Assembly: GCF_003932955.1 (NCBI RefSeq)
Contig: NZ_QOVY01000001.1
Span: 186,001 to 250,000, forward strand
From: Chryseobacterium sp. SC28
GTDB taxonomy: Bacteria > Bacteroidota > Bacteroidia > Flavobacteriales > Weeksellaceae
Direction of reading: 5' to 3'
DNA: 64,000 nt
In this document: piece after piece, positions 35,897 to 61,216 of the stretch
How positions within the stretch are numbered: position 1 is the stretch's first letter
Layout of the letters: each line of letters opens with the position of its first letter
Program-made: the position numbers and the translations under genes
Notes under the pieces: generated by a model
What the model saw: the letters and a program-made list of their open reading frames with translations, nothing else
The model's database searches: none
What the model was told of the DNA's origin: nothing

Positions 35897-37255
35897 ATGG
35901 GCATCTTAAATAAATATCAAAACTTCTATTTCGTTGGCATCGGCGGGATCGGGATGAGTGCGCTCGCAAGATATTTCCATGCCAATGGCAAAAGAGTTTT
36001 GGGATATGATAAGACCGAAACCAAACTCACCGCTGCTCTAGTTTCCGAAGGAATTGATATTGCTTTTGAAGATGTCATTAATGAAAAAATCAAAAATTTA
36101 GACAAAGAAAATACGCTCGTCATCTATACGCCAGCCATCAAAAAACTGGGCATTTTGGATTATTTCGCAAGCGAAAGTTTTGAAATCCTAAAACGTGCAA
36201 AAGTTCTCGGACTAGTTACCGAAAACACAGATTGCATCGCCGTTGCAGGAACGCACGGCAAAACTACGACCTCCACTTTGATCGCGCATCTCTGCAAAGA
36301 AGCCAATTTGCCTTCGTCGGCATTTTTGGGAGGCATATCGGAGAATTTCAAATCCAATTTCGATTACAACGGAAACCAATTCTCTGTTGTTGAAGCCGAT
36401 GAATACGACAGAAGTTTTCTTAATCTGTCGCCGGATTGGGCGGTCGTCACTTCAATTGATGCAGATCATTTGGATATTTATGGAGACAGAATTCAGATTG
36501 AAGAAGGGTTCCGCGCCTTTGCAACGTTGGTTCCGGATGATCATCGGCTTTTTGTGAGAAAAGGAATTGCCATCGGGCGAGGTCATTTGACTTACGCCGT
36601 GAACGAGGAAGCGGATTATTATTCCGATAATCTGAGAATGGATCACGACAAAATCTATTTCGATTTCCACACGCCAACGGAAGAAATCGAAGATTTTGTT
36701 TGGGAAATTCCGGGCATTCATAATGTCGAAAACGCAACCGCTGCTTTGGCAATTCTTAGCAATCTGGGGGTCGATTTCGAAACTTTGAAGAAGGCCATTG
36801 CCAGTTTCAAAGGCATCAAAAGAAGATATACAAAGCATATTTTCGACAATGGGAAGATTTATATCGATGATTATGCGCACCACCCAACAGAGCTGAATGC
36901 CGTCATTGGTTCGATAAAAACCTTTTACCCGACTAAGAAACTGCTGGTGGTTTTCCAGCCGCATTTGTTCAGCAGAACGAGAGATTTTGCGGAGGATTTT
37001 GCTCGAAGTTTGGAAAAGGCAGATGACCTATTGCTACTGGATATTTATCCGGCAAGAGAACTTCAGGAAAAATATGAAGGCATCACTTCGGCGTGGTTAG
37101 CAGAAAAAATTGAAATTGAAAACAAAAAAGTCTGCTCGTTGCAAGAGGCTTTTAAATTAATAAAAGAAAAGGAATTTGATGTGCTTTTGACCGTCGGAGC
37201 CGGAAATATCGACACACTTTATGATGGCATCGTAGAGTGGCTAACGAGGGTTTGA
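35897..37255 (+). CDS. murC: UDP-N-acetylmuramate--L-alanine ligase
   Basis: Adds the first stem-peptide residue, L-alanine, to UDP-MurNAc. It has 452 residues. YFVGIGGIGMSALARYF binds UDP. The ATP loop is AVAGTHGKTTTSTL, followed by VVEADEYDRSFLNL and TSIDADHLDIYGD in the middle domain. The C-terminal domain has DDYAHHPTELNAVI and VFQPHLFSRT. Ends just before the GxxExxY cassette. Confidence 0.97.
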   Translation: MGILNKYQNFYFVGIGGIGMSALARYFHANGKRVLGYDKTETKLTAALVSEGIDIAFEDVINEKIKNLDKENTLVIYTPAIKKLGILDYFASESFEILKRAKVLGLVTENTDCIAVAGTHGKTTTSTLIAHLCKEANLPSSAFLGGISENFKSNFDYNGNQFSVVEADEYDRSFLNLSPDWAVVTSIDADHLDIYGDRIQIEEGFRAFATLVPDDHRLFVRKGIAIGRGHLTYAVNEEADYYSDNLRMDHDKIYFDFHTPTEEIEDFVWEIPGIHNVENATAALAILSNLGVDFETLKKAIASFKGIKRRYTKHIFDNGKIYIDDYAHHPTELNAVIGSIKTFYPTKKLLVVFQPHLFSRTRDFAEDFARSLEKADDLLLLDIYPARELQEKYEGITSAWLAEKIEIENKKVCSLQEAFKLIKEKEFDVLLTVGAGNIDTLYDGIVEWLTRV

Positions 37256-37259
37256 TTTA

Positions 37260-37332
37260 AACGCAAGGTTCGCAAAGAGATTTTTTAAATATTGAAAATA
37301 TGCTTCGGGCGCAAAGGCGTTTCACTCAGCAA
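37260..37332 (+). repeat. left 73-bp inverted repeat of the GxxExxY cassette
   Basis: Starts five bases after the murC stop. Compared with the reverse complement of 37779-37851, both arms are exactly 73 bases. The inner 23 bases (37310-37332) are identical; the outer ends share AACGCAA and a CGC-AAGA-rich stretch, and the middle has diverged. Confidence 0.8.
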
Positions 37333-37394
37333 ATGAAGGTGCAAGGGAAATCAATTTTAACAAAAAAACTTAGAGCTTCTTGAATTAAAAAAAT

Positions 37395-37772
37395 ATGACA
37401 GAAAACGAAATTTCAAGTATTGTATTTGATGCGGGAATGAAAATTCATCGCAAACTTGGAGTTGGTCTTTATGAGAATGTTTATGAAGAATGTTTGAATT
37501 ACGAACTTAAAGAAAGAGAATTGATTGTCGAAAGACAAAAAGATATTAAAATTGAGTATGAAAATTTAACAATTGAAAGAGCATTTAGGGTTGATTTATT
37601 AATTGAAAACAAATTGATTATCGAGGTAAAAGCAGTTTCGGAAATTAATGATTATCATTTTTTTCAACTTCTAAATTACTTGAGATTGACAGAATTAAAA
37701 TTGGGAATGATTTTAAATTTTCACTCAACATTATTTAAAAATGGAGTGAAAAGAGTGGTAAATAAACTATAA
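37395..37772 (+). CDS. GxxExxY protein (PD-(D/E)XK-like small nuclease-fold protein)
   Basis: A 125-residue protein of the GxxExxY family, named for the motif seen here as GLYENVY (24-30). FRVDLLIENKLIIEVKA places D67 and the pair E77/K79 in the order of a PD-(D/E)XK nuclease core, and QLLNYL follows as the usual conserved helix. The family's biological role is not established. It sits alone in the murC-ftsQ gap between 73-bp inverted repeats, and its last eight codons plus the right repeat are copied in tandem downstream. The AT-rich sequence and flanking repeats suggest a mobile or formerly mobile cassette. Whether it has nuclease activity is unknown. Confidence 0.9.
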   Translation: MTENEISSIVFDAGMKIHRKLGVGLYENVYEECLNYELKERELIVERQKDIKIEYENLTIERAFRVDLLIENKLIIEVKAVSEINDYHFFQLLNYLRLTELKLGMILNFHSTLFKNGVKRVVNKL

Positions 37773-38420
37773 ACAGAATTGCTGAGTGAAACGCCTTTGC
37801 GAACGAAATTAATCAGCATTAATGAAAAAAAATCTTAGCGTTGGTTGCGTTAAAATAGAGTGAAAAGAGTGGTAAATAAATTATAAGTAGAATTGCTGAG
37901 TGAAACGCCTTTGCGAACGAAATTTATCAGCATTAATGAAAAAAATCTTAGCGTTCATTGCATTAAAAGAGAGTAAAAGAGTGGTGAATAAACTATAAAC
38001 AGAATTGCTGAGTGAAACGCCTTTGCGAACGAAAATAATCAGCATTAATGAAAAAAAATCTTAGCGTTCGTTGCGTTAAAAGAGAGTGAAAAGAGTGGTA
38101 AATAAACTATAAACAGAATTGCTGAGTGAAACGCCTTTGCGAACGAAATTAATCAGCATTAATGAAAAAAAATCTTAGCGTTCGTTGCGTTAAAAGAGAG
38201 TGAAAAGAGTGGTGAATAAACTATAAACATAATTGCTGAGTGAAACGCCTTTGCGAACGAAAATAATCAGCATTAATGAAAAAAATCTTAGCGATCGTTG
38301 CGTTAAAAGAGAGTGAAAAGAGTGGTGAATAAACTATAAACAGAATTGCTGAGTGAAACGCCTTTGCGAACGAAATTAATCAGCATTAATGAAAAAAAAT
38401 CTTAGCGTTCGTTGCGTTCA
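37744..38420 (+). repeat. six tandem copies of a 112-114 bp unit (gene 3' end plus right inverted repeat)
   Basis: The marker GCTGAGTGAAACGCCTTTGC starts at 37781, 37895, 38007, 38121, 38235 and 38348, giving periods of 114, 112, 114, 114 and 113. Each unit begins with a copy of the last GxxExxY codons (GAGTGAAAAGAGTGGTAAAT...) and continues through the right inverted repeat to CGTTGCGTT. Copies differ by a few substitutions and by the length of an A run. The last copy ends 15 bases before the ftsQ ATG. No unique spacers, so it is not a CRISPR. Confidence 0.95.
37779..37851 (+). repeat. right 73-bp inverted repeat of the GxxExxY cassette
   Basis: Reverse-complement partner of 37260-37332, starting six bases after the GxxExxY stop. 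It is the first of six copies carried by the tandem array. Confidence 0.8.
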
Positions 38421-38435
38421 AAAAAAAGAAAGAAA

Positions 38436-39440
38436 ATGAAAAACAAGTGGAGAATATTGAAAATACTCGTGACAGCGGTCCTTTTTGGATTTCTGCTCAG
38501 TTTCTCCTTGAAGCGTTTCAACGATGCCAAGATGGAAAATGTCTCTATCAATATGATCCAAAGCAAAACGCCGGTTTATTTTGTGGATGAAAAGGATATT
38601 AAAGAACTCGTAAAACAATATAATCCAACGAGGAAAGTCGGCGAAATTGATATTCCGGAATTGGAGAAGAAAATTAACCAAATCCCGTTTGTGGACAGCG
38701 CCAATGTTTATCTAAACCTGAACGGAAACCTGAATGTTGACATCAAACAAAGGGTTCCGGCCTTCAGGCTCAATAAAAATGGAAGAGATTTCTATGTGGA
38801 TAAAAACGGGGTCGAGTTCCCGATTTCAAGTAACTTCTCGCTACCCACTATGTTGGTAATGGGCGATGTGCAAGCTTCGGAATATATAAAACTAGGGCAA
38901 TTGATAGAAAAGATCGATGGAGATCCATTTAGCAAAAAGTTTTTCATCGGAATTACCAAGGAAAAAGGAAATTATAATTTGCTGACCAGCGAAGGACATT
39001 ACAAGGTGGAAATCGGCGATCTCAATCATATCGATTTCAAAATGACCGGTTTCAAAACTTTTGTCGAAAAATACCTGATCAACCAAAATCCGGAAAAATA
39101 TAAAAAGATCTCGCTGAAATACGACAATCAAATCGTGACCACGCTGAATCCTTATTTTAAAGAAAACGACAGCATTCTCAGAAATGCAAGCAAAATAGAA
39201 ATCCAAAAAACGAAAGAAAACACCGCACAAACGACGGCATCTACTCCTGCAAAAACCCAGGTGAAAGAACAAAAACCAGAACCGAACCCCGAGAAAAAAA
39301 TAATTGTCAAAGCGGAACCCGCAAAAACGGAAACCAAAAAAGTAGAGAAAAAACCGGAAAAGAAAACTTCTGTCAAAAAGAAAGAAACAACTGCCAAAAC
39401 AACTGAGAAGAAGAAAAAAGCAAGAGTAATTGTAGAATAA
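38436..39440 (+). CDS. ftsQ: cell division protein FtsQ/DivIB-like
   Basis: A 334-residue bitopic membrane protein of the divisome. A short cytoplasmic start is followed by one membrane helix (ILVTAVLFGFLLSFSL), then a POTRA-like domain (KTPVYFVDEKDIKELVKQ, IPFVDSANVYLNLNGNLNVDIKQRVPAFRL). The C-terminal ~70 residues are Lys/Glu/Pro-rich and low complexity, probably disordered. The ATG at 38436 is chosen over a TTG at 38412, which would begin inside the tandem repeat. The repeats lie directly upstream, so expression depends on read-through or on a promoter in the repeats. Confidence 0.88.
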   Translation: MKNKWRILKILVTAVLFGFLLSFSLKRFNDAKMENVSINMIQSKTPVYFVDEKDIKELVKQYNPTRKVGEIDIPELEKKINQIPFVDSANVYLNLNGNLNVDIKQRVPAFRLNKNGRDFYVDKNGVEFPISSNFSLPTMLVMGDVQASEYIKLGQLIEKIDGDPFSKKFFIGITKEKGNYNLLTSEGHYKVEIGDLNHIDFKMTGFKTFVEKYLINQNPEKYKKISLKYDNQIVTTLNPYFKENDSILRNASKIEIQKTKENTAQTTASTPAKTQVKEQKPEPNPEKKIIVKAEPAKTETKKVEKKPEKKTSVKKKETTAKTTEKKKKARVIVE

Positions 39441-59740: not shown

Positions 59741-61216
59741 TTATCTTCTTCTTCTAGTAGGTGTTCTCTTTTTCACTACTTTTTTCTCAACTACCGGAAG
59801 ATCTGATTTTTGAAGAGATTCCCAAGCAGCGCGGTTTACAGCTTCAACTACAACTTTTCTGTCGGCTTGTCTTTCCGCATCAGATGCAGTTTCAGGTACT
59901 TTGGCATCTCGTTCTCCTACTCCGGTTGATTTCAACTTATTAGGATCTACGCCTTGAGCTTCTAGGGCTGCAACTACAGCGGCTGCTCTTTGTCTAGAAA
60001 GTTTCAAGTTATATTCTGCGGAACCTTTTGCGTCTGTATGACCAGTTACTAAGAATTGTCCATCTGTAGATCCTTTAAGGATGCTTGCAGCTTGTGCAAT
60101 CGCACCTGCAGACTCAGGTCTTAGCGTCGCTTTGTTAAAATCAAACAATATGTTGGTAAGAGCACCCGTAGCTTCAAGGGCATATGCTTCAGCCGGTTTT
60201 GGACAACCTTGGTATTCTGCAAGACCAGGGACTGTAGGGCAAGCATCATCTTTGTCTAATACACCATCGCCGTCTGTATCTGGCCAAGGACAACCTTTGT
60301 TTTCTGCTGGACCAGCAACGTCAACACAAGCATCATCTTTGTCTAACACACCGTCTCCGTCTGTATCTGGCCAAGGACAACCGTTATTTTCTTTAGGTCC
60401 TGCTACATCTGGACATTGATCGTCTTTATCTGGAACGCCATCGCCGTCGGTATCAGGACATCCTTGGAATTCCGGTAATCCCGGTGTATCCGGACAAGCA
60501 TCTTCTTTGTCTGGGATGCCGTCTTTATCTCTATCTGTATTTCCGAATCTAAATAATAAGGATGCAGAAGCTTGCCAAAAGTTAGCAACATTGGACTGAT
60601 CTACAGGAGTTGTCACGTAATCTCCTTGAATACCCAAACCAAAGTTTTTAGTCACCCAGAAATTGATACCTGCGCCTGTACTTACGGTAAAATGGTCTGC
60701 TTTTCCTGTGGTGTTATCATCACCATCATAAACATTGTATACTTCTCCGGACTTAGTATCTGTTTGTGGAAAAGTAAGGTTTGTATAATCGTGTCTCAAG
60801 TAGTTGGCACCAACTCTCAAATAAGGATCGAACCAAGACTCTTCGTCCCATAAAAGACCTGCGGCTTTGACCTGAATACCAAGACCGGTCATCAAGAAGA
60901 ACTCTTTGTCCATTCCGAATCTCTTGTTGTCCACGTTACCTACGGTAGTTTGCCAATCTAGCACTAAACCTTTTCCAAGGCTTCTTGCAACCGTCAACTT
61001 AGAAAGTGGCGGTGTAATTAAATACTTCGATACCCCGAATAAGTTTTCTTCAAAATTGTTGAATGAGAACGTATTGCTGAAATTGTTTCTTTGAGCAACG
61101 TGATTCACTCCATGAGCACCTACGCCTATAACCCAAGGATTGGTAGTAGTCTGCGCAAAAACAGAAGAGGCAACAGTAAGTGCCAAAGCTGTAATTCCTA
61201 ATTTTAGATTTTTCAT
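59741..61216 (-). CDS. OmpA-family outer membrane protein with thrombospondin type 3 repeats
   Basis: A 491-residue structural outer-membrane protein. The signal peptide is MKNLKLGITALALTVASSVFAQ. Residues ~23-225 form a beta barrel (VGANYLRHDY, GAGINFWVTKNFGLGIQGDYV, WQASASLLFRFGN). Then come four or five calcium-binding thrombospondin type 3 repeats (DKDGIPDKEDACPD, DTDGDGVPDKDDQCPD and similar, ~230-340), with near-identical DNA copies at 60240-60420. The peptidoglycan-binding OmpA domain (ILFDFNKATLRPESAG, VTGHTDAKGSAEYNLKLSRQRAAAV, KSTGVGERDAKVPE) links outer membrane to cell wall. A basic tail (KKRTPTRRRR) ends the chain. Likely one of the most abundant envelope proteins. Confidence 0.95.
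   Translation of the reverse strand: MKNLKLGITALALTVASSVFAQTTTNPWVIGVGAHGVNHVAQRNNFSNTFSFNNFEENLFGVSKYLITPPLSKLTVARSLGKGLVLDWQTTVGNVDNKRFGMDKEFFLMTGLGIQVKAAGLLWDEESWFDPYLRVGANYLRHDYTNLTFPQTDTKSGEVYNVYDGDDNTTGKADHFTVSTGAGINFWVTKNFGLGIQGDYVTTPVDQSNVANFWQASASLLFRFGNTDRDKDGIPDKEDACPDTPGLPEFQGCPDTDGDGVPDKDDQCPDVAGPKENNGCPWPDTDGDGVLDKDDACVDVAGPAENKGCPWPDTDGDGVLDKDDACPTVPGLAEYQGCPKPAEAYALEATGALTNILFDFNKATLRPESAGAIAQAASILKGSTDGQFLVTGHTDAKGSAEYNLKLSRQRAAAVVAALEAQGVDPNKLKSTGVGERDAKVPETASDAERQADRKVVVEAVNRAAWESLQKSDLPVVEKKVVKKRTPTRRRR

Follow-up and report, generated by a model that had tools for sequence, protein, structure and literature searches.

A nuclease gene between mirror-image repeats, with related repeats scattered through the genome, suggests a self-spreading repeat system with another kind of enzyme

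In the 64,000-nucleotide stretch of Chryseobacterium sp. SC28 DNA analysed here (the window; contig NZ_QOVY01000001.1, positions 186,001 to 250,000), a gene encoding a GxxExxY protein lies between murC and ftsQ and is bracketed by mirror-image repeats, which raises the question of what ties a gene of this family to such DNA. The gene (37395–37772, plus strand) encodes 125 amino acids with a PD-(D/E)XK fold. Its left neighbour is murC (35897–37255) and its right neighbour ftsQ (38436–39440), both on the plus strand; the ATG start of ftsQ was set by comparison with relatives, the list of open reading frames placing it at a TTG at 38412. The gene is flanked by inverted arms of about 77 nt (37255–37332 and 37779–37856) that are 74% complementary. 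The left arm (about 37255–37332, plus strand) starts at the murC stop codon, its inner end pointing gene-ward, and contains three plus-strand iterons, CGCAAGG at 37262–37268 and CGCAAAG at 37271–37277 and again at 37310–37316, the last of which opens the 23 nt that are identical in the right arm.

A first-pass annotation, made from the letters alone, had described 73-base inverted arms with identical inner 23 bases and had read the unit as a compact mobile cassette. The arms themselves were borne out: between 37260–37332 and 37779–37851, 54 of 73 positions match in inverted orientation, including all 23 gene-proximal bases, and the local inverted-repeat score within 300-nt flanks is 38. The maximum among shuffled sequences was 22, and a chance origin of the arms is rejected, as 0 of 1000 dinucleotide shuffles reached 38. 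The impression of two single arms around the gene did not hold, since the right arm opens a tandem array (37744–38423, no strand) in which a 114-bp unit, made up of the last 29 nt of the gene plus the right arm, is present six times. The six arm copies, all on the minus strand, lie at 37779–37856, 37893–37968, 38005–38081, 38119–38195, 38233–38308 and 38346–38422. Four other genomes of the genus (G020, G005, G019 and G002) have GCGCTTTGCTCAGC in the inner right arm of the orthologous locus and GCRTTTCACTCAGC in the left arm; because the inner arms differ in these orthologues, the 23-nt identity in the window looks recent. Elsewhere in the window, at 60240–60454, there is a separate 87-bp tandem repeat of 2.5 copies, the letters of which, on the minus strand, we take to resemble a calcium-binding (thrombospondin type 3) repeat.

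The window protein belongs to the GxxExxY family TIGR04256, scoring 133.8 bits against a curated cut-off of 35 over residues 6–122. Its only Pfam matches at E 0.001 are PDDEXK_3 and DUF7487; at that threshold there is no HUH Y1 transposase domain, and the gene is not a DDE transposase. The AF2 model has a nuclease fold (pLDDT 96). A sequence search for solved relatives returned none below E 0.26, and the comparison with the PD-(D/E)XK nucleases Cas4, Hjc-like resolvases and the fdxN element excision factor gave a best Foldseek E of 1.4e-3. The gene is under purifying selection and has a conserved PD-(D/E)XK site: D67, E77 and K79 are invariant across 23 aligned GxxExxY proteins, and dN/dS is 0.06–0.21 in nine pairs. 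GxxExxY genes are present in 22 of the 23 genus genomes (no match in G015; nine genus matches below the family cut-off were left out of the gene set) and in 62 of 146 genomes of the order. As to spread by phages, the protein of one relative (L057) had no match in 50,697 phage records at E 1e-5. In distant bacteria, three GxxExxY genes (L261, L263 and L267) lie inside tight codirectional arrays, at ade-guanylyltransferase, fabD-fabG and radA, a setting comparable to murC-ftsQ. Among 5.39 million papers, a collection without subscription journals and preprints, only two name the family and neither deals with its flanking DNA; the papers searched give neither a function nor linked DNA for TIGR04256 or PF13366 (PDDEXK_3), and no report that links the arm repeat strings with GxxExxY.

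Arms were scored as an inverted repeat between the upstream and downstream 300-nt flanks with a score of at least 20. From 22 genus genomes 77 GxxExxY gene places were taken, of which two (L073 and L087) were dropped for flanks shorter than 300 nt; arms are present at 62 of the remaining 75, the other 13 genes scoring below 20, whereas among the other ORFs of these stretches, taken as controls, 4 of 237 have them. Outside this set we examined 80 named loci, the top-scoring ones among 514 confirmed matches obtained with four genus proteins; this sample leans towards arms because three of those four have arms scoring at least 20. They come from Bacteroidota, Chlorobi/Ignavibacteria and single records labelled Kiritimatiellota, Acidobacteria and others, labels that may err, many records being metagenome bins. 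After removal of five loci with flanks shorter than 300 nt, arms were found at 49 of 75 against 2 of 43 controls (47 of 73 when L163 and L164, which repeat genus loci, are left aside). The association of the gene with specific flanking DNA at many loci, which the first-pass annotation had anticipated, is thus upheld, and the idea that arms are a general trait of the intergenic DNA in these stretches is rejected, since only 4 of 237 and 2 of 43 controls reach a score of 20. One control ORF of 801 nt (L089), not a GxxExxY gene, has strong inverted repeats on both sides, with a score of 31. Among plasmid-borne relatives, for which 150-nt flanks were used, three of eight reach a score of 20 and five fall below it; the Gemmatirosa relative has a perfect 32-nt inverted pair and the Bernardetia and Bacteroides finegoldii records have pairs scoring 20 and 24, and some of the sub-threshold plasmid loci show, by eye, direct or one-sided iterons.

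The two arms of a locus belong together. The median left-right score is 25 within a locus (n=75) and 13 between different gene groups (n=5284), and the matched median exceeds the mismatched one in 20 of 22 gene groups; two gene groups (L082/L088 and L097) have no arms. The letters of the genus arms vary by protein group (CGCAAAG, CACAAAAG, CACATAG, CGCAGAT, CACTTAAG and CATTAAG), many named loci have CCGCAAAG or CACAAAG, and the plasmid records have CGCAGAGG or CACAGAG. The plan is similar throughout: the outer end has at least two iterons with a spacing of about 9 bp, and further ones often follow gene-ward. Most of the GxxExxY families examined have a pair of iteron-built inverted arms of their own. 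Concerted evolution of the arms within species was considered as well, and the difference in medians (25 within a locus against 23 across orthologues) is too small to claim it; a concerted change of arms is proposed solely for the 23-nt case in the window.

The history of the sites bears on how the gene came to be there. In 22 genus genomes both ends of the murC-ftsQ gap lie in one stretch, and the gap holds the GxxExxY gene in five, another ORF in nine and a short gap in eight, so that the expectation of relatives lacking the gene at this place was correct. The five with gene and arms are the window's own genome (G000), G020, G005, G019 and G002; the proteins of the latter four are 91–93% identical to the window protein at the same gap, for which reason a freshly inserted cassette is rejected. 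These five genomes do not form one clade in the murC tree, and losses, gains or transfer are accordingly all possible. The eight short gaps bear no resemblance to the window's arm (scores 7–13). In four of them (G013, G010, G009 and G017; L128, L130, L136 and L139) there is a different inverted repeat, scoring 28–34 and built of GTATTAATGTA-like units, which is possibly one more arm family. The nine gaps with another ORF (G004, G015, G008, G011, G007, G021, G018, G022 and G001) contain, by eye, a frame of about 165 codons with a signal-peptide-like start, followed in G018 by a weak right-arm remnant (score 18) that is visible in some of the others by eye only.

The nearest relative, G014 (murC 98%), carries a different GxxExxY gene at murC-ftsQ, whose product is 53–55% identical to the window protein and whose arms are different. 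The G014 protein is 81–82% identical to those of G008 and G003, where genes of this type lie one gene further on, between ftsQ and ftsA. An element inserted at a contig break apparently interrupts the G014 gene; mirror copies of CCTGTTGTGCATTTAGGA were seen near the contig ends G014:C25:1-317 and G014:C23:1-100 (L119 and L073). The ftsQ-ftsA gap, read in 15 genomes, is empty in G002, holds a solo arm in G019, G010, G005, G006, G017 and G020 and a full element in G008, and in G003 has an arm pair followed by gene and arm, an order that recurs in G002 at murC-ftsQ; in the remaining genomes read it contains other or degraded sequence. In the same gap of G020, G013 and G009 (L072, L128 and L136) we also observed a repeat with AGTCCCATCGGGACG-like and TAGGGTTTCAACCCTA-like halves, present once or twice. 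A third site is occupied by a ACCACATAG pair in G007 and by a GxxExxY gene in five genomes. This variation in the state of the gaps indicates that elements come, go and replace each other at the same places while most genes stay.

Of the 77 genus genes, 71 can be placed in 13 groups whose members share their left and right neighbours; some of these groups link two types of protein. Median protein identity is 95% to the best match in another genome and 58% to the best paralogue, the closest paralogue pair within one genome, in G001, being 85.6% identical. The gene is mostly inherited in place, and its paralogues are all distant. Inspection by eye of the gaps and sites read, none of them a clean full-element empty site from among very close strains, showed no target-site duplication, in agreement with the first-pass annotation, which had likewise seen no clear one. 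That annotation is confirmed in its observation and partly supported in its interpretation: of the compact mobile cassette, the link between gene and arms and the presence or absence of the unit at orthologous gaps stand, and fresh hopping does not, given the shared neighbourhoods and the median paralogue identity.

A further correction to the first-pass annotation is that the arm is a dispersed repeat. A 701-nt query from the focal locus has at least 46 matches in G000, its own place and array counted (40 of 82 candidates were scored), and matches to the focal arm occur in all 23 genus genomes, G015 included, with at least 4–30 in each at E 0.001, where no more than 40 candidates per genome were scored. 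At G000:C1:53.9-55.6 kb there is an array of 19 arm units with a spacing of about 97 bp, and the 7 kb read at this place lack a GxxExxY gene. Eighteen CGCAAAG copies read in context are mostly single arms of an approximately 80-nt unit in which TTTTAACGCAAAG-NN-CGCAAAG is followed by a run of T, a spacer, the third CGCAAAG and then a few bases resembling GCGCTTCGC; altogether, gene-less arm units occur singly, as inverted pairs or in tandem. For the ACCACATAG family in G005, all 24 opposite-strand neighbours within 160 bp are in the order (+,-) and none in the order (-,+); 13 of the 24 inverted pairs are spaced 92–95 bp, and many ACCACATAG pairs have an inner AAATAG...CTATTT-like hairpin. At three sites the ACCACATAG pair is missing from the orthologous stretches. 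Two of these three pairs lie inside an element of about 200 bp with ends AGAGCCTGTTTAAA, the third site showing a degraded likeness of such ends, so that another transposase may have moved some of the pairs; among 20 sampled stretches, both AGAGCCTGTTTAAA ends were found in one and a single end in two. Nested miniature elements of this kind, about 200 bp long with AGAGCCTGTTTAAA ends and a ACCACATAG pair inside, were noted at L101:7547-7658, L109:7169-7280 and L256.

In three of the five arm families examined, genomes that carry the cognate gene have more copies of the arm. Arms of the ACCACATAG family number 22–60 in the seven genomes with the cognate gene and 0–21 in the 16 without it (Mann-Whitney p 9e-5; contrasts r 0.70, p 0.0014); the corresponding values are p 0.011 (contrasts p 0.006) for CACAAAAG arms and p 0.006 (contrasts p 0.053) for CGCAAAG arms. 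CGCAGAT arms show no link of copy number with the gene (p 0.13), and CACTTAAG arms are scarcely dispersed, with 0–6 copies per genus genome. The independent contrasts used a single-gene murC tree, with gene-flanking arms subtracted, and the lists of cognate genes were set from the arms before the patterns were counted, with the exception of L087, which was placed by protein identity. Across the 146 genomes of the order, in a count that ignores kinship and in which many gene-less genomes are small, the TTAACCGCAARGNNCGCWAAG (CCGCAARG) arm is found in 30 of the 62 genomes with GxxExxY and in 1 of the 84 without; it occurs in 1 of 14 gene-less genomes of at least 2.5 Mb (a hand-made list) and is missing from 32 of the 62 with the gene. 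G015, which has no GxxExxY gene, keeps 38, 21 and 9 copies of three arm types, and copies therefore outlive the gene or do not need it. The first-pass annotation had named arms lying at random without the gene as evidence against the cassette; gene-less arms do exist, but not at random, three of five families tracking the gene.

The closest parallel among known systems is that of RAYT genes and their REP repeats. RAYTs were first described from gammaproteobacteria, and a RAYT gene is flanked by two inverted REPs, with REP clusters in a third of cases (PMC2817692); inverted REP pairs form the mobile unit (PMC3116915); and the RAYT gene is single-copy and vertically inherited, with more REPIN units where it is present (PMC8049555). 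The GxxExxY gene similarly lies between two inverted repeat copies, sometimes beside repeat clusters, and is vertically inherited, with no close paralogues other than the 85.6% pair in G001. Its arm repeats are dispersed for three arm types, the CACTTAAG type hardly at all; inverted pairs are the dispersed unit for the ACCACATAG type, whereas CGCAAAG copies are mostly single; and, for some arm families, genomes with the gene have more copies. The differences are equally clear. The RAYT enzyme is an HUH Y1 transposase and GxxExxY a PD-(D/E)XK (PDDEXK_3) protein; GxxExxY arms are 50–110 nt long with iterons about 9 bp apart, whereas REPs are palindromes of 20–40 nt with a GT(A/G)G head, and no GC-rich palindrome headed by GT(A/G)G was seen in the GxxExxY arms read by eye; and the GxxExxY system is found in Bacteroidota and some other phyla. 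With an enzyme that is not of the HUH type and repeats other than REPs, the system falls outside the RAYTs, and we hold that the two would be independent and share the same way of life. The likeness to insertion sequences and MITEs consists in inverted repeats at both ends and gene-less derivatives, and the difference in that GxxExxY has no DDE transposase, no recent multi-copy bursts and no target-site duplication that was seen.

On these grounds we consider it probable that GxxExxY is the resident nuclease of a RAYT/REPIN-like repeat system with an unrelated enzyme. The protein would bind the iterons of its own arms, perhaps two at a time in dimeric form, and nick or cut the DNA there. The cut would then undergo repair or template switching, by which arm units would be copied to new places in trans, converted to one another and expanded in tandem. 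The gene itself would move only rarely, carried between its arms. The main doubts concern the arm families that do not spread and the repeats in gene-less G015, and movement is here read from sequence comparison.

The same observations can be accommodated in other ways. If the arms were the terminal inverted repeats of an ordinary compact transposon, with GxxExxY as its transposase and gene-less pairs as its MITEs, the presence or absence of the arm-gene-arm unit at orthologous gaps, the existence of arm pairs without a gene and the occurrence of one GxxExxY type (81–82% identity) in two different gaps (murC-ftsQ of G014, ftsQ-ftsA of G008 and G003) would follow naturally. Such a transposon should leave other traces, however: within a genome there are no near-identical copies (best paralogue 85.6%, in G001; median 58%), 71 of 77 genes sit in groups with a shared neighbourhood, the gaps read by eye revealed no target-site duplication, and many CGCAAAG derivatives are single arms and not pairs; we think this explanation unlikely, if the least so of the alternatives. 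The same distance between copies within a genome tells against a homing-type endonuclease gene, whose product would cut arm sites that lack the gene so that repair copies it in. So do the eight short murC-ftsQ gaps, which are unlike the window's arm (scores 7–13), although four of them hold a different inverted repeat. The PD-(D/E)XK fold would suit a homing enzyme, and so would the different elements in the same gap of the sister genomes G000 and G014 (murC 98%, GxxExxY 53–55%), the ACCACATAG pair of G007 at a gap where five genomes have the gene, and the order of arm pair, gene and further arm in G002 and G003; even so, homing seems to us the least probable account.

Between these two in probability, and still improbable, is a role in the service of the host, with GxxExxY as an iteron-binding regulator or a genome-maintenance nuclease and the gene's arms as its own operators. 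Purifying selection (dN/dS 0.06–0.21 in nine pairs), inheritance in place and the frequent packing of the gene into codirectional arrays (murC-ftsQ here; ade, fabD-fabG and radA elsewhere) are in keeping with such a role. An operator, on the other hand, has no need of a mirror-image partner downstream of its gene, or of dispersed copies by the dozen whose number differs from species to species, and the gene is missing from 1 of 23 genus genomes and 84 of the order's 146.

Our preferred reading can be carried further, and we put the broader version at about an even chance: in many bacterial phyla the GxxExxY proteins may serve a second class of domesticated nuclease-repeat systems, one that evolved independently and in which every family recognises its own iteron arms and multiplies gene-less units through the genome; this would explain much of the scattered repeat DNA of the CGCAAAG, CACAAAG and CACAGAG types in Bacteroidota and other phyla. 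The tie between GxxExxY families and specific DNA provides a testable substrate for a common protein family of unexplained function. If the proposal is true, it would give an origin for the abundant short repeats of these genomes and a second type of enzyme for the RAYT way of life, so that general claims made for persistent replicating repeats could be held against two examples of independent origin.
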